From: Hallerella succinigenes | GTDB taxonomy: Bacteria; Fibrobacterota; Fibrobacteria; Fibrobacterales; Fibrobacteraceae | NCBI RefSeq assembly: GCF_002797675.1 | Contig: NZ_PGEX01000001.1 | Coordinates: 1,922,001 to 1,986,000 of the forward strand | Length of the DNA stretch: 64,000 nucleotides | Direction of reading: 5' to 3' | In this document: piece after piece, positions 12,118 to 49,394 of the stretch | Layout of the letters: each line of letters opens with the position of its first letter | Numbering within the stretch: position 1 is the stretch's first letter | Translations under genes and position numbers: made by a program | Notes under the pieces: generated by a model | Database searches by the model: none | The model's input: only the letters and a program-made list of their open reading frames with translations | Told to the model about the DNA's origin: nothing

Positions 12118-12277
12118 TTTCGAACACCGCCCCCGCAAGCCCCGGCAGTTGTCAAGTATTCCTAGACAACTACTCATGTGCGGAATACGAACGACACGAA
12201 AAAAAATTCTATATTCCCTCTAGTACCAACTTACGGAGACTGGATGCTGTTTAGCAAATCTTGGTTCATTGTCTAGG

Positions 12278-12313: not shown

Positions 12314-12355
12314 GATTTTTATGCCCGTCATAAAAATTCAACCTGGAGATAAACA

Positions 12356-12979: not shown

Positions 12980-13062
12980 CCCGTCCCCCGCGCAACCTTA
13001 ACTTGTCTCCCCGATCTCCTAAAAGCAAGCGTCAGGAGGAATTCTTCTGGTGCTTTTTCTTT

Positions 13063-13289: not shown

Positions 13290-13304
13290 TTCTCTGAAAA
13301 GCTT

Positions 13305-14417: not shown

Positions 14418-14441
14418 CGTCAACTCCTCTGGCGCTTTTCA

Positions 14442-15473: not shown

Positions 15474-15545
15474 CGTCAATTCCTCTGGCATACAAGCGGA
15501 AAAACACCAAAGACTACACACTTGTGCACTACAATATAGATTCAA

Positions 15546-15756
15546 AAATCCCGTTTATCAATAGACCCGCACGATTTTCTGAAAATTATTTTGGTGGGGG
15601 AAGTCTCCCGCACCACCTAAAGGTGGCCATGCCCACATAAGCGCTGAAGCGCTAAGTGGTCAAAGGCCGCAACGCCCCGACTGCAAAAAAACGGGATTTG
15701 TCGCAAAACCTTGGGATTGCCATCTTTTGTCTTCAAAAAGGGTATATTTCCCTTGT
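15546..15756. other. Divergent intergenic region with hairpins
   Basis: Lies between the minus-strand RhuM gene and the plus-strand restriction enzyme, so promoters in both directions are expected. It holds a CCACCT-AA-AGGTGG hairpin (15613-15626), a doubled AGCGCT palindrome (about 15640-15653) and an AAGGG...CCCTT dyad just before the ATG at 15757. No gene seen. Confidence 0.4.
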
Positions 15757-33016: not shown

Positions 33017-33050
33017 GTTTAATCTTTGATCATAAAGAGCCACTATAAGA
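33017..33050 (+). repeat. 34-bp cassette repeat, divergent copy 1
   Basis: Same 34-bp length as the consensus. The first 14 bases differ, but from ATAA the sequence AGAGCCA + CTATAAG + A is kept, matching copy 2. Confidence 0.65.
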
Positions 33051-33062
33051 CAATGACTGCGT

Positions 33063-33320
33063 TTATCGCCATCGATAGAAATCCCCGTTGATGGTTCTGC
33101 CGTCGATGCGCTGGGCTACATCAAGGTGTGAAACGGGTAAACCGGCTATCTTCTCAAGCCAGGGAACGCCGTGTTCGATGTTGGTGAACGCTTCCCCTTC
33201 TTCCGTCTTTAACAGGCAGAGAACAGCCTGCCGCACTTTCTTTGCGATGTTGCCGATACGGCAGATGTGGTCGCCATCAAGGAAAATGTCGTGGGATTTG
33301 TCAAGGGCCATTTCGTTCAT
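33063..33320 (-). pseudogene. Phage baseplate (Gp46/GPW_gp25-like) protein or fragment
   Basis: 85 residues with HDIFLDGDHICRIGN, KVRQAVLCLLKTEEGEAF and IEHGVPWLEKIAG, matching the pattern of tail baseplate wedge proteins of Mu-like phages (D-I-x-L-D ... A-x-x-I/V-R ... G-E-x-F ... G-V-P-W). No other phage structural gene is nearby, so this is a captured piece rather than part of a prophage. Confidence 0.5.
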
Positions 33321-33336
33321 CAGCCCGTAAACTATT

Positions 33337-33481
33337 ATGGGGAAGCTTACAGCCCTACGTCGGCGTAAAGCCCATGCTCCGCGTGACTAACGAGCAAATT
33401 GAAGACGGCGAATTGTTGGCGAAGCTTCTGGATGCTATGCTCCCGGAACTGCCTGCCGCGAAAGTGAAGAAGAAAAAGTAG
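33337..33481 (+). pseudogene. C-terminal gene tail (KKKK type), copy 1
   Basis: The open frame ending at 33481 reads LQPYVGVKPMLRVTN, GELLAKLLDAMLPELP and a Lys-rich end, with no start of its own. A similar tail (LLARPLDAMLPEVP...KKK) ends at 36891. Parent gene not identified. Confidence 0.45.
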
Positions 33482-33492
33482 GGGTGTTTGTT

Positions 33493-34560
33493 CTACGTAG
33501 AAGGAACGATAATCACTCGCCATTCGTTTTCCGACCGCAGGATATACCCCTTGTCGGTCATATTTTTTAACTGTTTTTGAATGGCTGACATGTTGATCCC
33601 GATTTTTTGTTGTAGTTCTCGGTATGTAATGGATGGGTTGTCCAATAGGCTTTCGAGAATTCTTGTCGAGTTCTCGCTGCGGAATGTTATCCGTTCCCCA
33701 TCGTACCACCAAACATCGGGTGAATGCTCCTGAACAAAGCCTATGTTGTATGCGATTTCTTCGGCATAAATTTTCTTGAAATAATTCTTGAATGCCCTGA
33801 TTTGTCGAAGAGTCGCTTGCGCTCCATCAGAAGGGGCGTCGCCGACTTCCAAATCGGATTGGTGTAGAGCGTCAAGGTATTCGTTTTTCTTGCGGCTACG
33901 GACCACTATCATTGGGTAGCCGTGCCTGGCTAGAATGTAGTTGACGAGTAATCGTGCAATTCGTCCGTTTCCATCTTCAAAGGGGTGAATGCGGATATAA
34001 CGGTAATGGAACAAAGCGGCGAGATCGACAGGATTCATTGATTTTGACGATTCCGTTTCGTTGTACCAATCTACAAGGTCAGCCATTAAGGCAGGAGTTT
34101 CTTCTGGGGAAGCGTAGGTGAAAATATCCCCATAACGTGTAATGACGCTGTTCGGACGCGTTTTGTATTGCCCCGCATGAATTGTATATGATGAGTGGTT
34201 CCCGTCGGGAAGAGTGTAATGGACTTGATAGTCTTCTCGAATCAGGGTCCTGTGCAATTGGCGGATGAAATTTTGGGTTAATGGTGAGAATGTGTCCTGC
34301 GATTTTTCTGAAGTCATTTTAAGACAAACTTCGCTGGCCTTCATCTCTTCGCAATCCCTAACCTTCGCGATACCTTCCACCTTGCCAAAAAAGAGCAGCA
34401 GTTCCGTTTGTCCGTATGTTAACGTATTGCCTTCGATATGGTTGCTGTTGTAGTTGAAATCCACCGAAAAACGACGGCTCAGGCGAAATAGGTCGTGCTC
34501 GCTAAGGGGTTGCATTGCCCGCCATTCGGCAAGGGTATTTTCGAGATTTGGGCGCTTCAT
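33493..34560 (-). CDS. Fic-domain protein (AMPylase family)
   Basis: A 355-residue protein likely to transfer AMP to a target protein. The active-site loop is HPFEDGNGRIARLL (His to Arg of HxFx[DE]GNGRxxR intact) near residue 180. An N-terminal inhibitory motif SNHIEGN (S-x3-E-G) near residue 40 makes it a class II, self-inhibited Fic. The C-terminal ~60 residues form a winged helix (NPSITYRELQQKIGINMSAI), common in Fic regulators. Starts at ATG 34560. It stands alone in cassette A of the repeat array. Confidence 0.9.
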   Translation of the reverse strand: MKRPNLENTLAEWRAMQPLSEHDLFRLSRRFSVDFNYNSNHIEGNTLTYGQTELLLFFGKVEGIAKVRDCEEMKASEVCLKMTSEKSQDTFSPLTQNFIRQLHRTLIREDYQVHYTLPDGNHSSYTIHAGQYKTRPNSVITRYGDIFTYASPEETPALMADLVDWYNETESSKSMNPVDLAALFHYRYIRIHPFEDGNGRIARLLVNYILARHGYPMIVVRSRKKNEYLDALHQSDLEVGDAPSDGAQATLRQIRAFKNYFKKIYAEEIAYNIGFVQEHSPDVWWYDGERITFRSENSTRILESLLDNPSITYRELQQKIGINMSAIQKQLKNMTDKGYILRSENEWRVIIVPST

Positions 34561-34585
34561 ACCCTAAATATAACAAAATTTCATT

Positions 34586-34610
34586 AAAAGGTGGTATTGC
34601 ACCACCTTTT
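34586..34610. promoter_or_regulatory. Inverted repeat upstream of Fic gene
   Basis: AAAAGGTGGT-ATTGC-ACCACCTTTT is a perfect 10-bp dyad 26 bp upstream of the Fic ATG. It could be an operator for the Fic protein's winged helix, or a terminator for the plus strand (T-rich tail after CGGCG). Confidence 0.5.
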
Positions 34611-34784
34611 CGGCGTTTTTTTGTGCCAGCGGGGTTGCCGGGTTGATAGCCACTACGATGAGATGCACGGCGACACGCTCGTAATCTTTTTCTATGGCAA
34701 TAGGGAAGATCCGCTTTGCTGAAGTCCGCGAATAGGCTGATGGGATGAAACAGATGTTTCTTGAAAGAAATTATATTGCAGAGA

Positions 34785-35975
34785 ATGAAATTTCTTGTTG
34801 GGATAACTCTTTTCTTGAATGTATGGCTTTGGGCGGGTACGGAAATTCCGTACTCCGTAGAATCTATATCTCAGTTCAAGGAGTATAGAAAAAATTTACT
34901 TGAATTGTTAAAAAATCAGAAAAAAGAAGATGTTGTTTCAATTGTGCAATATGTAAAAGAAAGGGCTCCAGATGAATTTGCAATTGATAACTTGGAACTG
35001 ATCCAAATCTACTTGTTGGTGGAACGTTATGACCTGGCTCTTGATTTGTGGATTGGGGAGTATGAAAAGGTTGGACGGAAAGTGCAATATTCTTTTGTTA
35101 GGGATTCCTTGCTGGATTATCTTGATGCAAATATGAATTTGACAGACTCTAGTGTAGTAAAGAAAAAACTTAAAGAAGTTGTTGTGTCTAACGTTGATGA
35201 AGAACAAAGGGGCTTGTATAAAATCCTGTTGGAAATGACGCCTTTTTACGAAATGCAAAATAAGTTCTATGCAATGCATTATAAAACATGGGATCGTGAG
35301 CAACAAACCTTGGTTTATAAGTTGGCCGTCAAGTATGTGGGTGACTCCTTGGCAAATTCAACTTTTGGTCAATTTGTTTTTGAAAATCGTGTGATTGATA
35401 AATTTTATTATAGAAGTGGAATTAATCCTGAATGCATAGAGAAATTGATTCTATTGCTTAAAGAATTTGAGCGTAATTTCCCAAATTCGGAAAGATTGCC
35501 GTGGATAAAGTATGAACGAAATCGATTTGAAAAATTATTGAAGGATTACTCGGAGTTCTTGAACTATCATAAGAAAAAATTATATACTGGTGGTTTGGGT
35601 ATTGAAGGCTGGTTGACGAATGATGGTTGGGAAATTGGAATCCCGATACAATTTCATCGCTTCTTGTTTATCCCGACTTTAGACTCGGATGAAAAACTTA
35701 ATGATGACGGATGGATATTTATTTTTGGCTTTGACTTGTTTGAAGTAAAGCATTTAAAGATTGTTCCGTTTGTTGGTTTGTGGGACCCTTATGTGGCAGG
35801 AATGCAGATTGAATTTCGTCCCTGGCTCGAAAAGTATCCCGATACAAAATTTGGCGCAGCTGCGTATATATCGCTAAAACTAAAGTATATGATGAAATAT
35901 GGAGAATTGGCAGAAACTGATGAAAAAGGTTTCGCTCATTTGTTTTATGCAGGTCTAGGTTTTCATTTTTGGTAA
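34785..35975 (+). CDS. Exported protein of unknown function
   Basis: A ~396-residue protein with an N-terminal signal peptide (FLVGITLFLNVWLWAG), a helical middle rich in charged residues, and a C-terminal ~120 residues of alternating hydrophobic/aromatic strands (FLFIPTLDSDE, IFIFGFDLFEV, KIVPFVGLWDPYVAG) ending in LFYAGLGFHFW. The terminal aromatic residue and strand pattern suggest an outer-membrane beta structure. ATG 34785 is chosen because it places the signal peptide at the N-terminus. Low G+C. Family not recognised. Confidence 0.65.
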   Translation: MKFLVGITLFLNVWLWAGTEIPYSVESISQFKEYRKNLLELLKNQKKEDVVSIVQYVKERAPDEFAIDNLELIQIYLLVERYDLALDLWIGEYEKVGRKVQYSFVRDSLLDYLDANMNLTDSSVVKKKLKEVVVSNVDEEQRGLYKILLEMTPFYEMQNKFYAMHYKTWDREQQTLVYKLAVKYVGDSLANSTFGQFVFENRVIDKFYYRSGINPECIEKLILLLKEFERNFPNSERLPWIKYERNRFEKLLKDYSEFLNYHKKKLYTGGLGIEGWLTNDGWEIGIPIQFHRFLFIPTLDSDEKLNDDGWIFIFGFDLFEVKHLKIVPFVGLWDPYVAGMQIEFRPWLEKYPDTKFGAAAYISLKLKYMMKYGELAETDEKGFAHLFYAGLGFHFW

Positions 35976-36180
35976 TTTTGGGGTGTTAGGGGCTGTCCCC
36001 CTAGGCGACTTGAGCGAAGTGAAAGTCCAATCTTCCCCCTTTACAGACCGCTCGGCTCTGTCGCATAAAAGAACCTACGAAATCGCCTCGCTTTCGCCAA
36101 CACGACTCGTTAAGACGAGTCGCTTATGGCTCACATTTACAGACCGCTCGGTTGCATTTTGTCTAAGTTCTAAGCTCTAG
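35976..36180. repeat. Non-coding repeat-rich stretch
   Basis: Two direct repeats TTTACAGACCGCTCGG (36040-36055 and 36136-36151) enclose a perfect CGACTCGT-TAAG-ACGAGTCG hairpin (36103-36122). The open frame crossing it encodes a low-complexity Ser/Arg-rich peptide and is not credible as a gene. Confidence 0.55.
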
Positions 36181-36181
36181 G

Positions 36182-36300
36182 TTCTGCCGAGACCGTCGTG
36201 CAGAAGATTCTCGACAGCGTCGAAGTGCCGCAAAATTTAAATGCGGATCGCGATCGTCGCTATGCTAAAGCAGAAGTAATGAGACAAGAAAAAAGTATAT
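36182..36300 (+). pseudogene. MoxR-like ATPase C-terminal tail, copy 1
   Basis: Reads SAETVVQKILDSVEVP and then runs on past the usual end (QNLNADRDRRYAKAEV) to TGA at 36300. SAETVVQKILDSVEVP resembles the extreme C-terminus of MoxR AAA+ ATPases; the rest of the gene is absent. A close second copy ends at 37674. Confidence 0.5.
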
Positions 36301-36415
36301 GAATTTGGCTGGAATCCTTGATTTTATTGGGTTTTCGTGTCTCATTAAACCCGATAAATTTTGTCTTCCTCATTTTGCTGCTTTTTCGCGTTTTCAGCTT
36401 TCGTGAGACAAAAAA

Positions 36416-36436
36416 AACAGGGCTGAAGGCCCTGTT
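36416..36436 (-). terminator. Minus-strand terminator
   Basis: AACAGGGC-TGAA-GCCCTGTT-type hairpin with an A run on its plus-strand left side, i.e. a T run after the stem on the minus strand. It would end transcription of the minus-strand gene remnant at 36551-36750. Confidence 0.7.
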
Positions 36437-36550
36437 GCGATTTGTTTGTGGATTATTGCATGTTTTTTAGATGTTTAGCCAAAAAGGGGAAGGCCGCGAA
36501 TCACTAGTAAAGCCATATCTGTACCTACCTCGTTTTCAATATATATTGTT

Positions 36551-36750
36551 TTATTTTGGAAGTGCGATGTTTACGCTGCGTTGGAGTAACCGTGAAAATT
36601 CTTCTAGTGTGGGAACCTTAAGAACGCCTTTGCCGTAGGGATTCAATATTCTGATTTTAGCGACGCTCGTTCCTAATTTTTTTTGCAGTGATATACTGTT
36701 TGACCATTTCTTTGACCTCGAACGCGTTAAACGGATAGCCGAAACGTTCA
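36551..36750 (-). pseudogene. 3' end of an unknown minus-strand gene, open at the repeat
   Basis: Read on the minus strand from the repeat edge: ERFGYPFNAFEVKEMVKQYI, then after a run of eight A residues (36677-36684) the frame is lost. Removing one A restores KKLGTSVAKIRILNPYG and VPTLEEFSRLLQRSVNIALP to a TAA at 36551-36553. So it is a C-terminal fragment with a poly-A frameshift. Family unknown. Confidence 0.55.
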
Positions 36751-36784
36751 GTTTTACCTCCGCTTATAAAGAGCCACTATAAGT
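36751..36784 (+). repeat. 34-bp cassette repeat, copy 2
   Basis: GTTTTACCTCCG + CTTATAA + AGAGCCA + CTATAAG + T. One core base (A for C) and the last base differ from the consensus. Confidence 0.9.
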
Positions 36785-36825
36785 CTAAAGCTGTGTCGAG
36801 TTCTGAAAAGTTCTGTGACCATGTT

Positions 36826-36891
36826 TTGCTGGCTCGCCCGCTCGATGCGATGTTACCGGAAGTGCCTGCACCAAAAGCGAAGAAGAAGTAA
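36826..36891 (+). pseudogene. C-terminal gene tail (KKK type), copy 2
   Basis: LLARPLDAMLPEVPAPKAKKK ends at TAA 36889-36891 (given here in one 20-plus pattern as LLARPLDAMLPEVP then APKAKKK). It parallels the tail at 33337-33481 (LLAKLLDAMLPELP). No start; parent gene unidentified. Confidence 0.45.
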
Positions 36892-36942
36892 GTCCTGACG
36901 AACGCACCTATCAACGGGGTGAGCGCCGGTTGCACCGAGTTT

Positions 36943-37239
36943 TTATTTTTCAAACAAGTCCGAGTGCGTTCCTGTGCGGACAAGTTCTAATATCAACACG
37001 TTGTCTTGCTTTCGGTAAATCAAGAGCCAATCCGGCTTTATGTGAAGTTCCCGATGCTCGGACCAATTGCCTCCAAGAGCATGATCCCGATACTTGTCTT
37101 CAAGAGGTTCGTCATTTGCGAGCTTTGAAACAACGGCGTACAATTCCTTCATATCGTAATTCCGTTTCTTTGCTCGTTTGACATCTTTCTTGTATTGTGA
37201 TGTCCATAGGATTTTGTATCTAGGTCCTTTCTCTACCAA
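36943..37239 (-). CDS. yafQ: YafQ-family mRNA interferase toxin
   Basis: A 98-residue RelE-superfamily toxin that would cleave mRNA on the ribosome. Diagnostic stretches: YKILWTSQYKKDVKRAKKRN, YRDHALGGNWSEHRELHI (the conserved His/Arg region) and KPDWLLIYRKQDN. Its start overlaps the antitoxin stop by 7 bp, so the two are translationally coupled. It is the downstream gene of a minus-strand pair within cassette B. Confidence 0.9.
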   Translation of the reverse strand: MVEKGPRYKILWTSQYKKDVKRAKKRNYDMKELYAVVSKLANDEPLEDKYRDHALGGNWSEHRELHIKPDWLLIYRKQDNVLILELVRTGTHSDLFEK

Positions 37240-37514
37240 GATTTCATCTCCCGAATGGCTTCGTTGACCGTATACGTCTTCATCTTCGAGGGGTTCTTCT
37301 GGTATTTCGCGTAAATTTCATCTGACTCTTCCATCGCCTTGATGGTTTTCCGATTCGGACGATTGATGGAAATTTCAAAAGGGATTCTCCCTTCGCGTAG
37401 AACTTGCTTGGTAAATACGTTGTACAGCCCCGAGATGGTTATTCCCACCTTTTCGCAAAAATCGGCGATGCCTTTTTTGTCGTCGTCGTCCAGTGTTATC
37501 GTCAAATTTGCCAT
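37233..37514 (-). CDS. dinJ: DinJ/RelB-family antitoxin
   Basis: A 93-residue ribbon-helix-helix antitoxin: ANLTITLDDDDKKGIADFCE is the DNA-binding strand and first helix, GLYNVFTKQVLREGRIPFEI the second half, and the C-terminal IYAKYQKNPSKMKTYTVNEA the toxin-binding part. AGAGGGC precedes the ATG. It probably represses its own promoter in the A+T-rich stretch 37515-37580, which contains TATA-rich dyads. Confidence 0.9.
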   Translation of the reverse strand: MANLTITLDDDDKKGIADFCEKVGITISGLYNVFTKQVLREGRIPFEISINRPNRKTIKAMEESDEIYAKYQKNPSKMKTYTVNEAIREMKSW

Positions 37515-37596
37515 TGTGCCCTCTTTGAAATGAGTGAAATCTATATGAAATATATATAAAAATCACATAAAATTCAGTGTTTTATAGTTGTGTTTT

Positions 37597-37674
37597 ACAG
37601 GAGAACATGCTGCAGAAGGAGTCTCTGCCGAAACTGTCGTGCAGAAGATTCTCGATAGCGTCGAAGTGCCGTAA
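37597..37674 (+). pseudogene. MoxR-like ATPase C-terminal tail, copy 2
   Basis: GEHAAEGVSAETVVQKIL and DSVEVP end at TAA 37672-37674. This matches the last residues of MoxR AAA+ ATPases and copy 1 at 36182. The fragment starts abruptly after a GTTTTAC heptamer. Confidence 0.5.
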
Positions 37675-37712
37675 AATTTAAACGCGGATCGCGAGCGTCG
37701 CGGGATCACCTT

Positions 37713-38303
37713 TTACACAAGCCGGGCCTTAAGCTCGGCTTTCACTTTTTTGAGGTCGCTGCAAGTGAGGACGGGAATGAGATTGTTGATTTCTTCGATA
37801 CTCTTGTCCCACCACTTGAACTTGAGCATGATGTCGATGAGTTCGTCGTCGAATCGCTTGCGGATGAGTTTGGCGGGGTTACCTGCCACGATGGTATAGG
37901 GCGTGACGTCGCTTGCTACGACAGAATTTGCCCCGATGATGGCGCCGTCTCCGATGTGGACGCCTGGGAGAATCGTCACATTCTGCCCGATCCATACGTC
38001 GTTACCGATGACGGCATCGCCTTTGAGCGGAAGGTCGCTCTGGGTCGGGGCGGGCTGCTCCCATGTGCCGAAGATGTAGAACGGGTAAGTGGTGGCTGCG
38101 TTCATCTGGTGGTTAGCCCCGTTCATCACGAATTCCACGCCGGCGGCAATCTGGCAGAACTTGCCGATGATGAGCTTGTCGCCGATAAAGTCGTAATGGT
38201 GGGTGACGTGCCGCTCAAAGTCCTTGTCGGCAAAGTAGGTGAAATCGCCCACAATGATGTTTTTGTTTTTGACATCGGGCTTGACGAAGGTCAAAGCCTC
38301 CAC
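37713..38303 (-). CDS. Xenobiotic (Vat/CatB-type) O-acetyltransferase, N-terminus uncertain
   Basis: A left-handed beta-helix (hexapeptide) acetyltransferase of the group that inactivates streptogramin A or chloramphenicol. Motifs: NIIVGDFTYFADKDFERHV, KLIIGKFCQIAAGVEFVMNG, ANHQMNAATTYPF (active-site His), GNDVWIGQNVTILPGVHIGD and VVASDVTPYTIVAGNPAKLI. The frame stays open and conserved upstream of GTG 38303 (TPDPNVIQPIANVE) but no ATG/GTG/TTG precedes it, so the true start was lost or is an unusual codon. Could still be made from GTG 38303, shortened. Native substrate unknown. Confidence 0.8.
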   Translation of the reverse strand: MEALTFVKPDVKNKNIIVGDFTYFADKDFERHVTHHYDFIGDKLIIGKFCQIAAGVEFVMNGANHQMNAATTYPFYIFGTWEQPAPTQSDLPLKGDAVIGNDVWIGQNVTILPGVHIGDGAIIGANSVVASDVTPYTIVAGNPAKLIRKRFDDELIDIMLKFKWWDKSIEEINNLIPVLTCSDLKKVKAELKARLV

Positions 38304-38384
38304 GTTGGCGATAGGCTGGATGACGTTTGGGTCGGGAGTCTTTGCTGGTATGGAAGGAATATAGATTAATTTTCGAATTTTATG

Positions 38385-38437
38385 TTAGCAGCGCCTTGAT
38401 GTAGGCCTGCACCTGCTTGACGGAGAGAGGGGGTGCT
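38385..38437 (-). pseudogene. C-terminal gene scrap open at the repeat
   Basis: The minus strand reads APPLSVKQVQAYIKALLT then TAA (38385-38387), running out of repeat copy 3 with no start. Family unknown. Confidence 0.35.
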
Positions 38438-38471
38438 GTCTTCCCTCGGCTTATAAAGAATCTCTATAAGA
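38438..38471 (+). repeat. 34-bp cassette repeat, divergent copy 3
   Basis: GTCTTCCCTCGG + CTTATAA + AGAATCT + CTATAAG + A. Arms are perfect; the spacer and left part have drifted. Confidence 0.75.
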
Positions 38472-38670
38472 TTCATCTTGGAAACACATATGTCGAAGTG
38501 CCTGGAGACGATGCTTAGTAACCATTTCAACCGTCTACTGATGCAACCAAATGGAATGATAAATACAGTTCTTCGTTGAACAAAAAAAGAAAATTTTCAT
38601 ACAAGTTAAAAATTTTTACTATATTTAAGGTAACGATTTAGGGTGATGGAAACATCCCTAGACACTACTT

Positions 38671-38735
38671 AAGAACTCTGACTAAAATAACTCTTCAGTT
38701 TCCACAAATTATTTTTAAATAATTGGAGAGTTCTT
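38671..38735 (+). promoter_or_regulatory. Ribosome-site-sequestering leader of the peptide gene
   Basis: AAGAACTCT (38671-38679) and AGAGTTCTT (38727-38735) form a 9-bp long-range stem that masks the GGAGAG. Between them, AAATTATTT and AAATAATT can form an inner A/T stem. A promoter-like TACTATATTT lies at about 38615-38625. Confidence 0.5.
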
Positions 38736-38736
38736 T

Positions 38737-38799
38737 ATGCTAAAAGTCATAATTAACATCATTCAAATTATCTGCGACATACTCGTGATAATTCTTTAA
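38737..38799 (+). CDS. Short hydrophobic peptide, probable type I toxin
   Basis: A 20-residue peptide starting MLKVIINIIQ and ending LVIIL, almost entirely Ile/Leu/Val with single Lys, Asp, Cys: a membrane peptide like the Ibs, Fst or TisB group of type I toxins. GGAGAG sits 6 nt before the ATG. The 5' leader contains AAGAACTCT at 38671-38679, a perfect complement of AGAGTTCTT at 38727-38735 that covers the ribosome site, so translation is probably RNA-controlled. A terminator follows directly. It is the only gene in its 364-bp cassette. No antisense RNA can be proven from sequence alone. Confidence 0.55.
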   Translation: MLKVIINIIQIICDILVIIL

Positions 38800-38808
38800 C
38801 CTAATTGG

Positions 38809-38834
38809 GGTACGGATTCAACCGTACCTCTTTT
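38809..38834 (+). terminator. Terminator of the peptide gene
   Basis: GGTACGG-ATTCA(A)-CCGTACC with TCTTTT after it, ending one base before repeat copy 4. Confidence 0.8.
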
Positions 38835-38835
38835 A

Positions 38836-38869
38836 GTTTTACCTCCGCTTATAAAGAGCCCCTATAAGA
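38836..38869 (+). repeat. 34-bp cassette repeat, copy 4 (consensus)
   Basis: GTTTTACCTCCG + CTTATAA + AGAGCCC + CTATAAG + A. The two 7-bp arms are inverted (one mismatch) around a 7-bp spacer. Confidence 0.95.
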
Positions 38870-39427
38870 TTCTAAAGTAATCGTAGATTTCCGTAAGCGT
38901 CGCCACGGTACTTCTCGGGCTCTTCGAAGCGCTTCCCTGATCGATTGCAATCGCAGGCGAAAGTCCGCGGATAAAGTCCACCGATCCGCGATCCGGACGT
39001 CCGAGGAAACGGCGCGCATACGTGCTGAGCGTTTCCACAAATCGGCGCTGTCCTTCCGCAAAAAGCGTGTGGAAAGCAAGGCTCGATTTTCCAGAACCGG
39101 AAACACCCGAAATCACCGTCAACTGATGACGCGGAATCGTCACGCTAAAGTTTTTCAAATTGTGCTTCCGCGCGCCGACGATCTGAATATCCAAGCAGTC
39201 CGCCACTTCTTTTTTACGAGCGATGGACTTCGCTTCTTCTGTTTTCGGTGAAAGGACTTTCGCAAGGAATTTCCCCGTCAAAGACTTCGGATTTTTCGCT
39301 ACTTCTTCGGGGGAACCTGTTGCGATAATTTCACCGCCGTTCACGCCCGCATCCGGGCCAAGGTCAATAATCCAGTCCGCGCATTTGATCACGTCCATAT
39401 TGTGTTCGATGATCACCATGCTGTTGC
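38870..39427 (-). pseudogene. uvrA: UvrA fragment spanning a tandem-UvrA junction
   Basis: The whole cassette is one open minus-strand frame without start or stop. It reads [41 protein letters not shown] (C-terminal end of a UvrA unit), then [39 protein letters not shown] (Walker A), [10 protein letters not shown] and [20 protein letters not shown] (N-terminal end of another unit). Such an order occurs where two UvrA copies are fused head to tail, as in double-length UvrA proteins. It is bounded exactly by repeat copies 4 and 5. Confidence 0.88.
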
Positions 39428-39461
39428 GTTTTACCTCCGCTTATAAAGAGCCCCTATAAGA
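39428..39461 (+). repeat. 34-bp cassette repeat, copy 5 (consensus)
   Basis: Matches the consensus of copy 4 through CTATAAGA. Confidence 0.95.
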
Positions 39462-39573
39462 TAAAGGAGTTTTGAAAGTTTTTTTAAAAATTTTGAAAAG
39501 TACTTGACAATGTTTTTTTTGTTTACATTCCTTTATGCGAGGCATTCTCGTTCAAATAACAAAAGGAGTAACT

Positions 39574-39909
39574 ATGGATTTTACTTGTAAGAAATGTGGA
39601 ATCGGAAATTATACATCTCTTTCCAGTTTGGTGAATTGCTCTTGCCCTAAAGGCGGCAATCATGAACCTTATGAAGGTCGCGATTGCGGTAACAACTGGA
39701 CTTGTAAGAAATGTGGAATCGGAAATTATACATCTCTTTCCAGTTTGGTGAATTGCTCTTGCCCTAAAGGTGGCTATCATGAACCTTATGAAGGTCGCGA
39801 TTGCGGTAACAACTGGACTTGTAAGAAATGCGGAATCGGAAATTATACATCTCTTTCCAGTTTGGTGAATTGCTCTTGTCCTAAAGGTGGCGATCACGAA
39901 CCGTTTTAA
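39574..39909 (+). CDS. Triple zinc-ribbon repeat protein
   Basis: A 111-residue protein made of three nearly identical 39-residue units, each TCKKCGIGNYTSLSSLVNCS + CPKGG-x-HEPYEGRDCGNNW; the third stops at HEPF. Each unit has C-x2-C ... C-x-C ... H, a compact zinc-binding pattern. At DNA level the unit is a 117-bp tandem repeat (starts at 39583, 39700, 39817) with only a few base changes, so it has expanded recently or is kept uniform. ATG 39574 has AAAGGAG upstream; TTGACA lies at 39504. The next gene follows at 15 bp. Nucleic-acid or protein binding is a guess. Confidence 0.75.
   Translation: MDFTCKKCGIGNYTSLSSLVNCSCPKGGNHEPYEGRDCGNNWTCKKCGIGNYTSLSSLVNCSCPKGGYHEPYEGRDCGNNWTCKKCGIGNYTSLSSLVNCSCPKGGDHEPF
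39583..39906 (+). repeat. 117-bp tandem repeat, 2.8 copies
   Basis: Copies begin at 39583, 39700 and 39817 and differ at a handful of positions (for example GGCAAT, GGCTAT, GGCGAT before the His codon). Confidence 0.95.
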
Positions 39910-39924
39910 CAGGGACTTGACATT

Positions 39925-40572
39925 ATGTTTTCCATCGCTAATGTTTCCGAGTTGTTCAAGGATGCACAATATGTGAATTTTTATCCGTTCGTGGGTGAAA
40001 ATTATTTTTCTGCGCCACATAAAATCCTTGTCTTGGGCGAGTCTCATTATGGCCCGAAAACGATAAATTCGAATCATGATTTTACGAATTGGATTGTCGG
40101 TGAAGATTACCTTTTGCCTAAAATAGATGGCAAGGGCTTTCCAGGTTATACACGGTGTTTTGATAACACTGCGCGTGTTCTTGCGGAATGTTGTAACAGT
40201 GACTCTTACAAGGTGTATCGCGAGATTGCTTTCTATAACTATTTCCAGGAAACAGTCGGCGAAGGCCACCATCGTTCTAAGGCTTTTCTGACTTCAGAAT
40301 TGGTTGAAAAATCAAGAAAGGCTTTAGGCGAAGTTTTGGAAACTCTAAAGCCAGATTTGGTTGTTGGCTGGGGATATAGTAGACTGGAATGGGAATGGCT
40401 CCCTCACGACCGTAAACAAATTTGGCAGGTTCCAGGGAAATTGCACTTGTTTACGATTGATGAATATTTGCCAGTACCATTTTGGTGCATGAAACATCCG
40501 TCAAACTTTTTCCCCGTTGGCTTGCATCGGGAACTTTATGGGCTTATAAAAGAACATCTTTGGGGTAAATAG
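39925..40572 (+). CDS. Uracil-DNA-glycosylase-superfamily-like protein (tentative)
   Basis: A 215-residue protein. HKILVLGESHYGPKTINSN near residue 32 and PFWCMKHPSNFFPVGLHREL near the C-terminus resemble the first and last motifs of the UDG fold (GxxP/GES... and HPS), and KPDLVVGWGYSRLEW gives a central strand. The canonical catalytic motifs are not exact, so glycosylase activity is unproven. It shares an operon with the zinc-ribbon protein, suggesting a two-gene unit acting on nucleic acid. Ends in a clear terminator. Confidence 0.5.
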   Translation: MFSIANVSELFKDAQYVNFYPFVGENYFSAPHKILVLGESHYGPKTINSNHDFTNWIVGEDYLLPKIDGKGFPGYTRCFDNTARVLAECCNSDSYKVYREIAFYNYFQETVGEGHHRSKAFLTSELVEKSRKALGEVLETLKPDLVVGWGYSRLEWEWLPHDRKQIWQVPGKLHLFTIDEYLPVPFWCMKHPSNFFPVGLHRELYGLIKEHLWGK

Positions 40573-40596
40573 AAAGCCGAGATTCTTCTCGGCTTT
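40573..40596 (+). terminator. Terminator of the zinc-ribbon operon
   Basis: AAAGCCGAGA-TTCT-TCTCGGCTTT with a T run; follows the stop codon directly. Confidence 0.88.
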
Positions 40597-40666
40597 TCTT
40601 ATGAAAAAAATGAAGTTTTGGCTAAATATTTCAACAGATGAACGCTGTTTAGCTCATATACAAATT

Positions 40667-42037
40667 GGTAGTGTCAAGGGTTTTTCGCAAAAATAGTTTG
40701 TCCCAACATCAGATCTAGGCTACATTTCCGTCCTTTTCCTGTTCCCGTTTCAGCTCGTTCTCCTTTTCCATCTCGTAAAGATGCTTCATGTTCAGGTATC
40801 TCTTGGTACCCCATTCCTTCGTGGCGATATGCCTTAGCCTAGCGCACACAAGCATCAGGGCAGATTCCCCGTCCGGGAAGCAACCCACAACCCGAGTCCT
40901 TCTGCGTATCTCCCGGTTCAGGCGTTCCAGGATGTTGTTCGTCCTTATGCTGCGCCAGTGTTCGTGCGGGAAGTCGAGATAGGTCAGCGTCTCCATCACG
41001 CCCTTGCGGTAAAGGTCTGCGGCGGATTTTAGCCCCATATCGCGCAGTTTCTGTTCTACGTCGGCAACCTTTTTCAGTGTCGCCTCCTTGTCTTCCTGGG
41101 CGTACGTAGCCTTCAGCAGGGGCATGGCCGAAGCGAGCTTGTTGCGAGGGATCTTTGTCATCAGGTTCCTGAAAAAATGCACCATGCAGCGTTGCCATTT
41201 CGCATCCGGGAACACTTCCGAGGCCGATTCCAGGAAGCCCAGGTGTTTGTCCGATGTGAACAGCCGGACGCCATTCAGGCCACGTTCCCTGAGGCTTACG
41301 AGGAAGCTACGCCAGCATTCCTTGCTTTCGCTTGCGCCCTCGCATGCTCCGAGTATCTCCCGGTAGCCGTCTTCGGACACCCCTATCGCGACAAGTACCG
41401 AGACGCTGGTCATTTCGCCGCCCCAGCTGCGCTTCAGGTAGATGCCGTCAACGAACACGTAGGGGTATTCCCCGCCTATGGCCCTGTTTCGCCATTCCTC
41501 GATCTTGCCGTATACCTTCTGGTTCAGGTTGCTGACGGTCGAGGCGCTGACCCGAGAGCCCCACAGGAGCTCCGTGACGTCTTCCACGCGGCGCACGGAT
41601 ACTCCCGCCAGGTACATCTCGATGAGAGACTCCTCCACGGACGATTCCCTGCGTCTGTAGCGCTCGATGATGGCGGTCTCGAACGGGGCCAGGCGCAGCT
41701 TGGGTACGGACAGGTCGACCTCTCCGGCGGAAGTCAGAAGCTTGCGGTGGTAATGACCGCTGCGGTAGTTCCTGCGCTCGTCAGTCCGCTCATGCCTTTC
41801 CGCGTTGCACAGCTCCGCGGCTTCCTCGTCCAGCATCGTGTTGAGGGTTTCCTCGATGGTCTTTCTAATGACTCCTTTCAGGTCGTTCTTGAGGCCTTCT
41901 TCGTCGATTTTGATTATATTGTTGTCCATAGGATGGTCCTTTTTAGGTTGATTTGTGATTATTTCAAATCTAAAAATTGGAACATCCTATTTTTTTTACT
42001 CCCTTAGAGGAATTTGCGAAAGAAAATATACGTTACC
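40667..42037 (-). mobile_element. IS256-family element
   Basis: A 1371-bp element with an 8-bp target duplication TACAAATT at 40659-40666 and 42038-42045. Terminal bases GGTA and an inner TTTCGCAAA are repeated in inverted orientation at both ends. Confidence 0.92.
40715..41929 (-). CDS. IS256-family (Mutator-type) transposase
   Basis: A 404-residue transposase. Mutator-type landmarks: AELCNAERHERTDERRNYRS near the N-terminus; PYVFVDGIYLKRSWGGEMTS (first Asp); GVRLFTSDKHLGFLESASEV (second Asp); KWQRCMVHFFRNLM; and the Glu in NNILERLNREIRRRTRVVG. Appears intact. Confidence 0.95.
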   Translation of the reverse strand: MDNNIIKIDEEGLKNDLKGVIRKTIEETLNTMLDEEAAELCNAERHERTDERRNYRSGHYHRKLLTSAGEVDLSVPKLRLAPFETAIIERYRRRESSVEESLIEMYLAGVSVRRVEDVTELLWGSRVSASTVSNLNQKVYGKIEEWRNRAIGGEYPYVFVDGIYLKRSWGGEMTSVSVLVAIGVSEDGYREILGACEGASESKECWRSFLVSLRERGLNGVRLFTSDKHLGFLESASEVFPDAKWQRCMVHFFRNLMTKIPRNKLASAMPLLKATYAQEDKEATLKKVADVEQKLRDMGLKSAADLYRKGVMETLTYLDFPHEHWRSIRTNNILERLNREIRRRTRVVGCFPDGESALMLVCARLRHIATKEWGTKRYLNMKHLYEMEKENELKREQEKDGNVA

Positions 42038-42206
42038 TACAAATTCAAGGCGTGTTCCCAGATGAGATTGTTGTTGATTTGTTTTTCTACTAAACCAATA
42101 AATGTTATGATGGCGTTCAGATAATCTATTGTAGCTGGAACGCACTCATTTTGTGATTGGGTAAGTTCGGAAAGAAGTTTTTCATACTCATCTTCAACGT
42201 TTGAGT

Positions 42207-42240
42207 TTTACCTCCGCTTATAAAGAGCCCCTATAAGATT
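42207..42240 (+). repeat. 34-bp cassette repeat, copy 6 (consensus)
   Basis: Matches the consensus of copy 4. Confidence 0.95.
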
Positions 42241-42489
42241 CAATGTGACCGCAGGCCGTGATGCACAGGCAAAAACTTACATCGAAACCCTCGATAAAAT
42301 TTTTGACCACGATCATCTGTATCTTTCGATTTGCGATAACGGAATTTCCGCTCAAAAAACGCTCAACCTGTTTACCGTTGCACTCGCGAAGGAATTGAAC
42401 CGCGAACTCGTCGCGGTCGGCGACGTGCACTACATTAAGCGGGAAGACGCCGACGCTCACAAGGCTCTCCGTTGCATTTCGCTCGTTGG
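42241..42489 (+). pseudogene. dnaE: DnaE (DNA polymerase III alpha) PHP-domain fragment
   Basis: The whole 249-bp cassette is one open plus-strand frame without start or stop: ETLDKIFDHDHLYLSICDNG, LNLFTVALAKELNRELVAVG and DVHYIKREDADAHKALRCIS. This is the internal PHP-domain region of the replicative polymerase (compare L-x-L-x-D-x-G ... NDVHYL-x-x-ED-x-x-AHD). It is bounded exactly by repeat copies 6 and 7. Confidence 0.88.
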
Positions 42490-42523
42490 TTTTACCTCCG
42501 CTTATAAAGAGCCCCTATAAGAT
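42490..42523 (+). repeat. 34-bp cassette repeat, copy 7 (consensus)
   Basis: Matches the consensus of copy 4. Confidence 0.95.
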
Positions 42524-42624
42524 TCAATCGCCTAAAACACGCTAAAAGACGCTTAAAAAGGACTAAAGAGGAATCCGACTTTTCTCAGTGGAAAAATGTA
42601 TATTGGTGATATGTAGGTTTGATT

Positions 42625-42858
42625 ATGGAACTTGTAGAAAACATAAAGGAAAAATTTTCATTTTACAAGGAAAATGACACGGACAAGATGTATCGCGTCG
42701 ATTTTCCGGATATGGACGGTTGGCTAGCTGTTTCATTTGACAAAAAAAAAGTTCTATTTCTCTATAAGGATTATCCCCAGAATTTTTCGAAGGAAGAAAA
42801 GGCTATCTTTGAAAAAGAAGAACCTTTCTGGGCCTCATTTTTTAATAACGGTCGATAA
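42625..42858 (+). CDS. Small orphan protein of cassette G
   Basis: 77 residues: MELVENIKEKFSFYKENDTD, YRVDFPDMDGWLAVSFDKKK, then an acidic-aromatic end (EKEEPFWASFFNNGR). ATG 42625 is chosen; its leader GATATGTAGGTTTGATTATGG is nearly shared with the gene at 43684. Family unknown; small cassette-borne proteins of this kind are often anti-phage or toxin-related, but nothing proves that here. Confidence 0.55.
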   Translation: MELVENIKEKFSFYKENDTDKMYRVDFPDMDGWLAVSFDKKKVLFLYKDYPQNFSKEEKAIFEKEEPFWASFFNNGR

Positions 42859-43128
42859 TCATTTTACATCACCATCGATACCTTTCATCTGATTTTCGGG
42901 ACGAGTGTTAATAAATCCCATCATTTTTTGAAATTCATAGTTATTCGCTATAGTTTCTATATTCGCCAGATACGCTTGCTGTTCTAATTTAATACCATAA
43001 GTGCTCATTGTTTTTTGACAACCAAAACGTTCCTTTAAGAAACGATCTGAAATTGTAAATGTCTTAAAGCCATTATTCTCCGGTATACGTCTTTGCAACT
43101 CCAAATACTCTACGATACCGCTCCTTTT
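42859..43128 (-). pseudogene. 3' end of a minus-strand gene, open at the repeat
   Basis: From repeat copy 8 the minus strand reads KRSGIVEYLELQRRIPENNG, FKTFTISDRFLKERFGCQKT, then IETIANNYEFQKMMGFINT and a stop at 42859, convergent with and abutting the 77-residue ORF. Internal TTG codons could start it, but the open frame into the repeat suggests a truncated gene. Family unknown. Confidence 0.5.
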
Positions 43129-43162
43129 GTTTTACCTCCGCTTATAAAGAGCCCCTATAAGA
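43129..43162 (+). repeat. 34-bp cassette repeat, copy 8 (consensus)
   Basis: Matches the consensus of copy 4. Confidence 0.95.
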
Positions 43163-43269
43163 TACATTACGGAATACTCACGTGGACACATACGCACCAC
43201 TGCCACCTGTCTAGGGACTGGGTCGCGTGTTGTACGAAACAGTCAAAGGAATCGAAGTGGAGGTCACCC

Positions 43270-43656
43270 ATGCTGGTAGCCGTGGAAAAGCCCCGTACGC
43301 GAAACACTGAGGCCGTCTCGTTCAAGGTCGAAGGCGAACGAATCCCGGAATGGCTTCTGGGGATAGTCCGCGAAGTTTACCCGACAGCGAAGGTTGAGGA
43401 CGGCGACGATAGAATCGAGATATCGAGCACAGACTGGTACAAGGACATGGAATCCAGGGACACTCCGGCAAGGACGCTAAAGATCATGCGGACCGCCGCT
43501 GGACTCACGCAGAAGGATTTGGCAAAGAAATTGGGGATTGCGTTCCAGAACTACAACCCGCTTGAACGCGGAACGCGCCCAATCACCATGCAGATGGCGA
43601 TGAGGCTTGCGGATGCCCTTGGCACGTCCTACGAGATGTTCTACAAGGAAAAATAA
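43270..43656 (+). CDS. XRE-family transcriptional regulator / antitoxin-like
   Basis: A 128-residue protein. The C-terminal ~60 residues are a Cro/CI helix-turn-helix: LKIMRTAAGLTQKDLAKKLG, IAFQNYNPLERGTRPITMQM, AMRLADALGTSYEMFYKEK. The N-terminal half (VSFKVEGERIPEWLLGIVRE) resembles N-terminal parts of HigA/MqsA-like antitoxins. GGAGG is 6-8 nt before ATG 43270. A 27-codon frame starting at GTG 43227 overlaps its start and could be a leader peptide or small partner, but is weak. Confidence 0.75.
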   Translation: MLVAVEKPRTRNTEAVSFKVEGERIPEWLLGIVREVYPTAKVEDGDDRIEISSTDWYKDMESRDTPARTLKIMRTAAGLTQKDLAKKLGIAFQNYNPLERGTRPITMQMAMRLADALGTSYEMFYKEK

Positions 43657-43683
43657 CCTATATTCGGATATGGAGGTTTGATT

Positions 43684-43953
43684 GTGGCTGAACAGAAAAA
43701 AGAATTCTTCTGGAAATACGAAAGTGTCCTTGACCACGACATAACTCCGGAACAGTTCAAGGCTATTACAGGATGTAGCTGGGAAAGGCGCTTCGAATAC
43801 CTCCAAATCGTCGTCAATAGCCCCTATGCTGGAGCATCTGACATTTGCCTTTTGTATGGTGGCCGATATGGAAGGCCTAGAAACGAGAATGTATGCAATA
43901 AGTATTCGGCACTAGCAGCTAAAGCACCTATGGTGATGGATTACTGCTACTAA
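43684..43953 (+). CDS. Small orphan protein of cassette H
   Basis: 89 residues: AEQKKEFFWKYESVLDHDIT, PEQFKAITGCSWERRFEYLQ, IVVNSPYAGASDICLLYGGR. GTG 43684 follows GGAGG by 7 nt. It starts 27 bp after the XRE gene, so the two may form a unit. Its TAA (43951-43953) is the last codon before repeat copy 9. Family unknown. Confidence 0.6.
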   Translation: MAEQKKEFFWKYESVLDHDITPEQFKAITGCSWERRFEYLQIVVNSPYAGASDICLLYGGRYGRPRNENVCNKYSALAAKAPMVMDYCY

Positions 43954-43987
43954 GTTTTACCTCGTATCGTAAAGAGCCCCTATAAGA
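43954..43987 (+). repeat. 34-bp cassette repeat, variant copy 9
   Basis: GTTTTACCTCGT + ATCGTAA + AGAGCCC + CTATAAG + A. The left arm is changed (ATCGTAA for CTTATAA) while the spacer and right arm are intact. Confidence 0.9.
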
Positions 43988-44013
43988 CATATATTCAGAA
44001 AAGGAGGACGATT

Positions 44014-44205
44014 ATGCCTGCTGAATTTACACCAAGTCCGGAATTCCTGAAGTTACTCGCACTCGTTGACGAGTGGTCTACGCACGATAAGGAATACATC
44101 TGGGAAAGCTCCCTGAAGGATGGAGCACCTCAATATGTGCACGAAGCTTTAAAAGATCTTGTCAATATTCAAAAGGAACTAGACAAGGAAGGAAGCTGCA
44201 TCTAG
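44014..44205 (+). CDS. Small orphan protein of cassette I
   Basis: 63 residues, acidic: MPAEFTPSPEFLKLLALVDE, WSTHDKEYIWESSLKDGAPQ, then VHEALKDLVNIQKELDK. AAAGGAGG precedes the ATG. Family unknown. Its stop overlaps the stop of the convergent fragment on the other strand. Confidence 0.55.
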   Translation: MPAEFTPSPEFLKLLALVDEWSTHDKEYIWESSLKDGAPQYVHEALKDLVNIQKELDKEGSCI

Positions 44206-44286
44206 ATTCCTAGTGGCTTGGCTCGCTCCGTCACAATCTTGTAGACCTGCTTCGACATGTTCTGCGCACGGCTCCTGTTCACGAAA
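44202..44286 (-). pseudogene. C-terminal gene scrap open at the repeat
   Basis: From repeat copy 10 the minus strand reads FVNRSRAQNMSKQVYKIVTE then RAKPLGI and TAG (44202-44204). No start; protein-like composition; family unknown. Confidence 0.45.
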
Positions 44287-44320
44287 GTTTTACCTCCGCT
44301 TATAAAGAGCCCCTATAAGA
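44287..44320 (+). repeat. 34-bp cassette repeat, copy 10 (consensus)
   Basis: Matches the consensus of copy 4. It is the last copy noticed. Confidence 0.95.
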
Positions 44321-44339
44321 TCTACTTTCTGAATAAACC

Positions 44340-44640
44340 TTATTTTATGCGGGTTCGCAAGCGATTTGACGTTGAAAAAATCAGAAAAATTGGATGAAAT
44401 TCTGGGATTTGGGCCATTTTTTCGGAGCCCTGGTGCTGCCGAAATGGCTGTAGATTTCCAGGAACTCCCTGTCCGTGACGCTCAGCAGGCAGACTGTGGA
44501 GCGGGTCTCGATTAAATTGGCGATTCGGTGCCGTTGCAGCCCGCAGGAGCGTGTAGCCGTAATTCAAAAAGTCGTTGGGGTGTTTGTATTTCCCTGCTCG
44601 TGTCCGACATTCTGCTTGGGGCAAAGCACCGCTTGTGAAC
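44340..44640 (-). pseudogene. Gene scraps including a cas1-like piece
   Basis: On the minus strand, AGKYKHPNDFLNYGYTLLRA followed by ATA (about 44529-44596) closely resembles the conserved region of Cas1 integrases (N-x2-LNYGY-x-LLRA). It then passes into another frame reading RIANLIETRSTVCLLSVTDR and EFLEIYSHFGSTRAPKKW of unknown origin, ending near 44390. Neither piece has a start. No CRISPR array or other cas gene is near. Confidence 0.4.
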
Positions 44641-45989: not shown

Positions 45990-46190
45990 AGCGTCATCGA
46001 CCTTTTCGCCAAGCCGTAAATCTGTGTATAGGCGACATCGGCCACAAGCCGCTGCCCATTCAAAATCAGAAAGTGCTTGAAGGTACTCGGGTCTTCATCG
46101 TCAACTCCTCTGGCATACAAGCGGAAAATACCAAAGACTATACACTTGTGCGCTAGATATAGATTCAAAAATCTAGTTTGTTAATTGGCC
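45990..46190 (-). pseudogene. Remnant of the RhuM-PLD gene and its leader
   Basis: Two separated pieces match the gene at 14442-15473: the segment for DPSTFKHFLILNGQRL plus ADVAYTQIYGLAK, fused directly to the 5' leader (GTCAACTCCTCTGGCATACA and the following ~80 bp match 15475-15565 with few changes). Everything between was deleted. Confidence 0.8.
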
Positions 46191-46255
46191 CGAGGTTTCT
46201 TGCACTTTATGACAACCTATTTTGTTTATATTTACATTGGAATAGTTTGACTTTT

Positions 46256-49200: not shown

Positions 49201-49381
49201 AAAGGCAAAAATCGAAAGCCTTGATCATTGGACCGACAAACAAGAAACCAAGGCCGCGGTGGATACCCTCATTCGTGACACGCTCTGGAAAGAGTTGCCC
49301 GAAAGTTACGACGATGTGGCCATCAACATGTATCGCGCCCGAGTTTACGAATACGTTTACACCCATTATAGAGTAGCATAA
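46256..49381 (+). CDS. hsdR: Type I restriction enzyme R subunit
   Basis: Translocase-nuclease subunit of a type I system; about 1041 residues. The N-terminal nuclease shows D-I-V and GIPLLFVELKRNDVAVQNAY (E-x-K) around residues 155-175. The SF2 motor has GVFWHTQGSGKSYSMLFLSQ (Walker A, near residue 300), MSDEAHRSQNG (DEAH-type, near 400), RIGFTGTPLL (motif III) and LMQTIARANRVNEG (motif VI). ATG 46256 gives the family N-terminus SYEYSENILVQESAGNLLQH. Followed 13 bp later by a small gene and then hsdM. Confidence 0.95.
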   Translation: MSYEYSENILVQESAGNLLQHELGWRVVFAYNEEKLGENGTFGRTSYREVLLHRYFREALQKLNPWITPTQIDEAVQKFTATLSTSSLLQINEEKYGFIRDGIPVSYKKPDGTSDVKRALVIDFLNPENNDFLAVKEMKIHGEIYRRRTDIVGFVNGIPLLFVELKRNDVAVQNAYDDNYTDYLSTIPQLFYYNAFLMLSNGVEAKVGTLGSKYDFFHEWKRLKESDAGSVALQTMLRGICKKETFLDLLANFILYDHSDGNTVKILARNHQYLGVNEAFKAYEDRKLRNGKLGVFWHTQGSGKSYSMLFLSQKIRRCAKGSPTIVILTDRDELNKQISDTFENCGMLGKVKASKFIATSGNDLVAKLKGNPSFIFTLIQKFNKKDLTPIYPDHDILVMSDEAHRSQNGIFADNMCALLPTASRIGFTGTPLLKDDNITERTFGGYISIYDFKRAVEDGATVPLYYENRADKIKELKNPEITDKILNAIEAADLDPEQQEKLEKDFAKEYHLLTAEPRLRLVAKDFAHHYSDLWTSGKAMFVCLNKVTCVRMYNYVQEYWAEEIVALEKQLKTATQQEAQELERKIQWMRETEMAVVVSQEQNEQQTFAKWGLDITPHRTKMEKRELDKEFKDPKNKFRVVFVCAMWLTGFDVKCLSCLYLDKLLKAHTLMQTIARANRVNEGKSNGLIVDYAGIVKALRKALADYTNNVSGGRADPTIDKSELLNRIIEVIAKTEAFLDEVDASLAKVVESKGFDKIAAIQDTANAVCSSAENKKTFSTYAAELSRLVRYTNREDVTAENRDKINAIDAVARNLKAKRRHVTNVDLMVELNKIVNEYVQMDVGGKKNPKQFDISKIDFELLGREFAKAKRKNLLLRDLEELLKERLSLLLATNSSRINFYERYQEIINAYNSEQDRATIEKTFMDLMDLASSMDTEQQRFVREGFKNDEELSMYDLLFKDNLSKQDIKKLKTVAVELLEKIKAKIESLDHWTDKQETKAAVDTLIRDTLWKELPESYDDVAINMYRARVYEYVYTHYRVA

Positions 49382-49394
49382 ATCTGGAGGCCCA

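Follow-up and report, generated by a model that had tools for sequence, protein, structure and literature searches.

Which enzyme assembles a tandem array of unrelated gene cassettes between copies of one short direct repeat? This question is raised by a locus of Hallerella succinigenes (Fibrobacteraceae) that lies in a stretch of 64,000 nucleotides (contig NZ_PGEX01000001.1, positions 1,922,001 to 1,986,000), here called the window. A sequence-only reading had described the locus as an integron-like array built on a tyrosine-recombinase site of the Xer/dif type. We arrive at another answer: with a probability of roughly 0.87, the cassettes are giant spacers that were made by an orphan, type II-like Cas1-Cas2 pair, acting on a leader of the kind found in clustered regularly interspaced short palindromic repeats (CRISPR) and on a repeat of 35 base pairs (bp). 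The observations that carry this view are the repeats, the leader, the linked cas1-cas2 genes, exact-edged captures of self and foreign DNA, the gain or loss of cassettes at the leader end, decay at the distal end, and the phylogeny of Cas1.

The repeat array of the window

The array in the window (array 1) consists of ten repeats between positions 33017 and 44321, all in direct orientation. All ten plus-strand copies that had been proposed exist, and eight of their starts were placed correctly, while two had to be moved, to 42205 instead of 42207 and to 42489 instead of 42490. The unit is not an exact 34-mer in every copy, as had been thought, but has a length of 35 bp (GTTTTACCTCCGCTTATAAAGAGCCCCTATAAGAT) and is identical in only six of the ten. 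Its conserved parts are GTTTTACC and AAAGAGCC.YTATAAGA and not the CTTATAA/CTATAAG dyad that had been taken for a recombinase core; the left arm of this dyad differs between arrays and between copies, as it is missing from the copies at 33017 and 43954, and array 2, introduced below, has ...ATCTCGTAAAGAGCCCTTATAAGAC. Matches to the dyad pattern number 23 versus 3.8 expected (0/100 shuffles). The repeat folds into weak hairpins only (-2.7 and -5.0 kcal/mol), and a RYYYAAC/GTTRRRY pair was found neither in its sequence nor in its fold, so that the view that it is not a classical attC site holds. No match to the repeat was obtained in Rfam, and a known RNA element was therefore rejected. In the whole closed genome (3,127,022 bp, one contig), the full repeat with up to three mismatches occurs only in array 1. 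The search of the genome and of related genomes that had been advised was fruitful when the repeat core was used: it revealed a second array, and the 18-base core is present in 65 of 111 genomes of Fibrobacteraceae, where reversed-pattern matches are almost nil. The features of array 1, in window positions, are the following.

33017 to 33051, plus strand: repeat copy 1, leader-distal (trailer) end, most degenerate, 8 mismatches
33052 to 36750: cassette of 3,699 bp with a Fic/helix-turn-helix protein (33493-34560, minus strand) and an unknown protein of 404 residues (34761-35975, plus strand)
36751 to 36785, plus strand: repeat copy 2, 3 mismatches
36786 to 38437: cassette of 1,652 bp with a YafQ toxin (36943-37239, minus strand), a RelB/DinJ antitoxin (37233-37514, minus strand) and a hexapeptide acetyltransferase (37713-38303, minus strand)
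38438 to 38472, plus strand: repeat copy 3, 6 mismatches
38473 to 38835: cassette of 363 bp, no clear gene
38836 to 38870, plus strand: repeat copy 4
38871 to 39427: cassette, self-captured fragment of host uvrA
39428 to 39462, plus strand: repeat copy 5
39463 to 42204: cassette of 2,742 bp with a CX2C repeat protein and a protein of 215 residues; a Mutator-family transposase gene (40715-41929, minus strand) was inserted later
42205 to 42239, plus strand: repeat copy 6
42240 to 42488: cassette, self-captured fragment of host dnaE
42489 to 42523, plus strand: repeat copy 7
42524 to 43128: cassette of 605 bp with a DUF7675 protein (42619-42858, plus strand) and a protein of 81 residues (42859-43104, minus strand)
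43129 to 43163, plus strand: repeat copy 8
43164 to 43953: cassette of 790 bp with an XRE regulator (43270-43656, plus strand) and a protein of 91 residues (43678-43953, plus strand)
43954 to 43988, plus strand: repeat copy 9, 6 mismatches, a variant nearer the array 2 type
43989 to 44286: leader-proximal cassette of 298 bp with a protein of 63 residues
44287 to 44321, plus strand: repeat copy 10, leader-proximal
44322 to 44405: leader, conserved and non-coding, after the last repeat; common to array 2 and the arrays of eight relatives
44405 to 44533, minus strand: cas2 remnant, 43 residues (54-96) that are 95% identical to the intact Cas2 (tblastn), DNA 90% identical to array 2
44529 to 44609, minus strand: cas1 remnant, region of residues 166-190, 78% identical, remainder deleted

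The content of the cassettes is as unrelated as had been described, and clean fragments of core genes (uvrA, dnaE) are now added to it. A small DUF7675-like protein recurs in several species, being encoded at window positions 42619-42858, in cassettes of the genomes G051 and G061 and in array 2, sometimes beside the 81-residue partner; it possibly represents a cassette-specific gene family. Directly past the leader end of array 1, the window contains type I restriction-modification genes (46178-53048).

The second array and its cas1-cas2 pair

Array 2 comprises 20 copies of GTTTTACCTCATCTCGTAAAGAGCCCTTATAAGAC on the opposite strand, at about G000:C1:2048716-2070435 (G000 being the genome under study) and 83 kilobases (kb) from array 1. 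It lies in the stretch L093, of which positions 3959-7636 correspond to G000:C1:2049959-2053636, and its cassettes measure 188 to 3,678 bp. The array begins about 60 bp past an intact orphan cas1-cas2 pair; the leader is followed by cas2 (L093:2345-2656) and cas1 (L093:1461-2357) on the opposite strand. The encoded Cas1 of 298 residues is of type II (TIGR03639, E=4e-82; PF01867), its closest solved structure found is 4zkj (1e-39), and it is the only intact Cas1 relative in the genome. In an alignment it retains the motifs REG, FHR and DDIMEPY, which we take to carry the catalytic Glu/His/Glu of Cas1. The Cas2 matches TIGR01573/PF09827, and the Cas2 proteins of giant arrays start about 10-18 residues later than aligned regular Cas2s, which means that an N-terminal stretch is missing. 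Features of type II CRISPR-Cas loci are present, with cas1 and cas2 adjoining a leader and direct repeats of a length within 25-48 bp, and no Cas9 was found in this genome.

The leader is conserved over about 85 bp. Over the 240 bp beyond its last repeat, array 1 has 90% identity with the corresponding place in array 2, and only remnants of the cas pair are left beside array 1 (window 44405-44609). As judged from this loss of its own cas1-cas2, array 1 would either depend on the pair about 80 kb away, which would act in trans, or now be silent. Cassettes of array 2 (L093, about 12000-15700) have been entered by insertion sequences of about 1.5 kb, of which the genome has some 7 to 20 near-identical copies.

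Captured DNA with exact edges

Most informative are those cassettes of which the source could be recognized. The cassette at 42240-42488 equals positions 1903173-1903421 of the host chromosome in dnaE (assigned by eye from the translation) with 0/249 mismatches, and the identity ends at both repeats. Likewise, the cassette at 38871-39427 corresponds to host positions 546109-546666 in uvrA with 2/558 mismatches and sharp ends at the repeats; it lies farther from the leader and is more diverged than the dnaE cassette, as expected if it is older. In G061, which belongs to another species, the leader-proximal cassette of 244 bp matches that genome's own NUDIX gene (named by eye from the translation) without mismatch (0/244). 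As all three source genes remain intact in their chromosomes, the DNA was copied into the array. Foreign DNA is found as well. Two intact resistance genes, one for ribosomal protection (tet(O)-type) and one for efflux (tet(40)-type), are carried by a cassette of array 2 (L093:3959-7636, 3,678 bp). This cassette is 99.7-100% identical to Campylobacter plasmid DNA in a match that runs up to both repeat edges; past its left edge, plasmids of Campylobacter and Monoglobus go on with sequence common to both. The leader-proximal cassette of array 2 (950 bp) is 96% identical over its whole length to a repeat-free stretch of a congener.

In addition, cassettes of arrays 1 and 2 overlap with different end points, mostly at 91-100% identity and some of them inverted relative to the repeats, as would result if one kind of source had been sampled repeatedly. 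From the cassette at 42524-43128, for example, 506 bp recur in array 2 at 99.8% in inverted orientation, and pieces of the cassette at 43164-43953 recur there with different end points. A search for the source of these overlapping XRE/DUF cassettes in the own genome returned only the arrays, and neither array 1 nor most of array 2 nor the array of G089 gave a match in searches for plasmid and phage sources. In the latter, phage genes occupy part of the array, and one cassette protein (L230:8106-8600) matches ADP-ribosyltransferase families (PHROG 16625, 3895). A viral origin of the system was considered and rejected, as viral contigs gave only 13 scattered single-site matches and no close Cas1. 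Since intact genes are mixed with useless fragments in the cassettes, capture looks random, and selection would act later.

Cassette sizes and growth at the leader

A set of 127 distinct cassettes was collected from about 25 genomes, from which two intervals of 56-57 bp beside degenerate distal repeats were excluded. Cassette lengths in this set range from 164 to 3,699 bp with a median of 526, and an intact spacer of about 30 bp was seen in none of the arrays of the clade. The cassette ends carry a weak symmetric inward motif, with AA at +3,+4 (p 4e-10) and TT at -4,-3 (p 3e-16) against a dinucleotide background, where the p-values are optimistic because some cassettes share ancestry.

Cassette gain or loss between strains, which had been named as a check, is seen in two pairs of genomes. 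G043 and G034 have the cas1-cas2-leader region and a cassette of 881 bp in common, and between leader and common cassette G043 possesses one additional cassette of 363 bp with its 35-bp repeat. In the second pair, G082 and G044, the distal cassette (317 bp) and its flank are common to both, and four further cassettes lie towards the leader in G082. Such differences probably represent gains at the leader, precise losses being less likely. At the other end, the distal repeats are degenerate in seven examined arrays, all of them cas-linked or the window's own (array 1 and those of G029, G082, G043, G061, G070 and G089).

Relatives and the phylogeny of Cas1

Cas1 genes with at least 71% identity to that of array 2 occur in 16 genomes, and most of the relatives are draft or metagenome assemblies. 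In 12 of the 16, this one included, cas1 is intact or nearly so and lies in an assembled locus with leader and repeat, and the cassettes of the clade's loci are large wherever more than one repeat was assembled. G109 and G110 (genus g11) have a Cas1 of the same clade (77-79%) and a different 35-bp repeat, GTTGTAATGGAGTTCTACGGGAACTTAGTTAAAAC; the leader-proximal cassette of G109 (436 bp) encodes the beginning of the large subunit of a phage terminase. The large-cassette trait follows the Cas1 clade and not one repeat sequence. A metagenome contig of the Prevotellaceae (L159:10001-14154) carries an orphan cas1-cas2 pair, a third type of repeat, GTTTGAAATTATAGAATTAAGCATTATGATTAAAAC, for which no viral match was found, and one cassette of 558 bp, which is followed by genes and possibly a degenerate third repeat copy. 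Its Cas1 is sister to the giant-array clade on a long branch, and the system may reach wider than the Fibrobacteraceae.

Cas1 proteins at 42-52% identity, from the same family and from Bacteroidota, belong mostly to ordinary arrays with a period of 65-78 bp. Cas9 is encoded near cas1 in 43 of 47 such regular loci versus 0 of 12 giant-array loci. The giant-array Cas1s fall into a single clade (100/97) of a maximum-likelihood tree, separate from every regular Cas1, and this clade is nested among Cas1s whose loci have Cas9 and ordinary arrays with the 65-78-bp period. Both Cas9 and the N-terminal stretch of Cas2 have been lost in it.

Proposed mechanism and alternative explanations

Read most simply, these data point to Cas1-Cas2 as the active enzyme of the arrays, which would acquire spacers with no limit on their length. 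It would bind double-stranded DNA fragments without regard to length, from about 160 bp up to several kb, and the two 3' ends of a bound fragment would attack both borders of the leader-proximal repeat. Gap repair would then duplicate the repeat, resulting in one new cassette and one new repeat beside the leader. In the type II-A system of S. pyogenes, it is Cas9 that trims prespacers to about 30 bp; when Cas1-Cas2 acts alone in vitro, it integrates substrates of untrimmed length (PMC8034620). As Cas9 is absent here, whole genes and random fragments would be stored, and its loss is likely to have freed cassette length from this limit.

Several points weigh against this proposal. The in vitro substrates of that study were short, integration of kb-sized DNA by the present Cas1-Cas2 is deduced from sequence, and one repeat would have to hold both ends of such a fragment. 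The Cas2 is shortened at its N-terminus (by about 10-18 residues relative to the aligned regular Cas2s), and a benefit of the stored genes for the host is presumed. Many array-bearing genomes lack a cas1 of the clade (for example G032, which is 99% complete), so that many arrays may be relics. Array 2 shows no degeneration of its distal repeat, and a variant (43954) is found among the repeats near the leader in array 1.

The integron or Xer/dif-like explanation, in which a tyrosine recombinase acting in trans exchanges cassettes at the 35-bp site, draws on the cassette architecture, the partial dyad in the repeat, the toxin-antitoxin and resistance genes in the cassettes, and five tyrosine recombinases (PF00589) encoded elsewhere in the genome. 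However, none of the five lies near either array, and both arrays are away from the two GC-skew shifts, so that nothing points to dif; instead, cas1-cas2 and a leader adjoin the arrays in 12 genomes, namely array 2 and the arrays of 11 relatives, and the dyad is not conserved. Furthermore, the dnaE, uvrA, NUDIX and tet(O) sources have no repeat site of their own, and the host genes were copied from intact sources, which a two-site exchange of the integron or dif type cannot explain. We therefore regard this explanation as highly improbable. From the sequence-only reading, the cassettes with unrelated genes and the strain variation remain valid, while the recombinase machinery gives way to cas1-cas2 and leader.

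It is also very unlikely that an ordinary CRISPR array is in decay here and that insertion sequences and homologous recombination between repeats have replaced or inflated its short spacers. The disappearance of Cas9 and the insertion sequences within some cassettes would fit such decay, but most cassettes are free of transposons, and no spacer-sized cassette is found in the 164-3,699 bp set nor any 30-bp spacer in the arrays of the clade. Active growth is rather indicated by captures of host and plasmid DNA with exact edges, by leader-proximal units with perfect repeats and by recent additions that are specific to a strain. A transposon-like origin, casposon-like or other, would make the cassettes mobile elements in their own right, each of which duplicated a common 35-bp target on insertion. 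The direct 35-bp duplications do look like target-site duplications, and a Cas1 homologue can act as transposase in casposons (PMC6614799). Nevertheless, the cassettes have no common terminal inverted repeats, only the weak and short end preference, and no gene is common to them; fragments of host genes cannot be mobile elements, and the integrase genes are located outside the cassettes, beside the leader. This origin, too, has very little to recommend it.

Comparison with known systems and implications

In its components, the locus is closest to the type II-C adaptation module of Bacteroidota and Fibrobacteraceae, with which it shares the TIGR03639 Cas1, the cas1-cas2 order, repeats of 35-36 bp, a leader beside cas2 and leader-end polarity. 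It differs by the absence of Cas9, by cassettes of 164-3,699 bp where about 30 bp would be usual, by the missing N-terminal stretch of Cas2, and by the lack of any normal spacer in the arrays of the clade. With integrons (IntI, attI, attC) it has in common a tandem direct array of unrelated genes and small orphan reading frames between sites, a toxin-antitoxin pair, resistance genes and insertion at one end, whereas there is neither a linked tyrosine recombinase nor attC, the sources are site-less and stay in place, and the repeat is duplicated by the insertion itself. In casposons a Cas1-family enzyme is likewise implicated in the integration of kb-sized DNA, but here the integrase is outside the mobile unit, terminal inverted repeats are absent, and growth occurs at one leader. 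The pdif/Xer modules of Acinetobacter plasmids also have short repeated sites around accessory genes, in contrast to which the present repeats have one orientation, no conserved Xer-type site and a linked Cas1-Cas2. Without effector and short spacers, the system is not a usual CRISPR immune system; most likely it is integron-like in outcome, CRISPR-like in mechanism, and descended from a CRISPR adaptation module.

An earlier description of such a system was found neither in the open-access papers searched, a scope that leaves subscription papers and preprints aside, nor in the portions of a 2022 review of CRISPR exaptations that were sampled by keyword. CRISPR adaptation is understood as the storage of memories of about 30 bp for RNA-guided immunity, and here the same integrase appears to store whole genes without an immune effector. 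If true, integron-like gene arrays could arise by a second route that is unrelated in mechanism and, as no pre-made recombination site is needed, would be a direct model for the origin of cassettes, a question still open in the case of integrons. The part played by Cas9 in setting the length of spacers could be tested in nature, and a tool that inserts gene-sized DNA at one defined site is suggested.

For the organisms themselves, we think it reasonably probable that an effector-less CRISPR adaptation module has become a dedicated and still active system of gene capture and storage across a family of gut bacteria and in at least one lineage of Prevotellaceae, that is, a Cas1-Cas2 counterpart of the integron that takes up random DNA without a pre-formed site and stores intact resistance genes. 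The stored genes, such as tet(O)/tet(40), Fic, the toxin-antitoxin pair and the small orphan genes, could benefit the host, which would make the arrays a functional analogue of the integron, and CRISPR would in that case have a link to how resistance genes (tet(O)/tet(40)) spread among gut bacteria.

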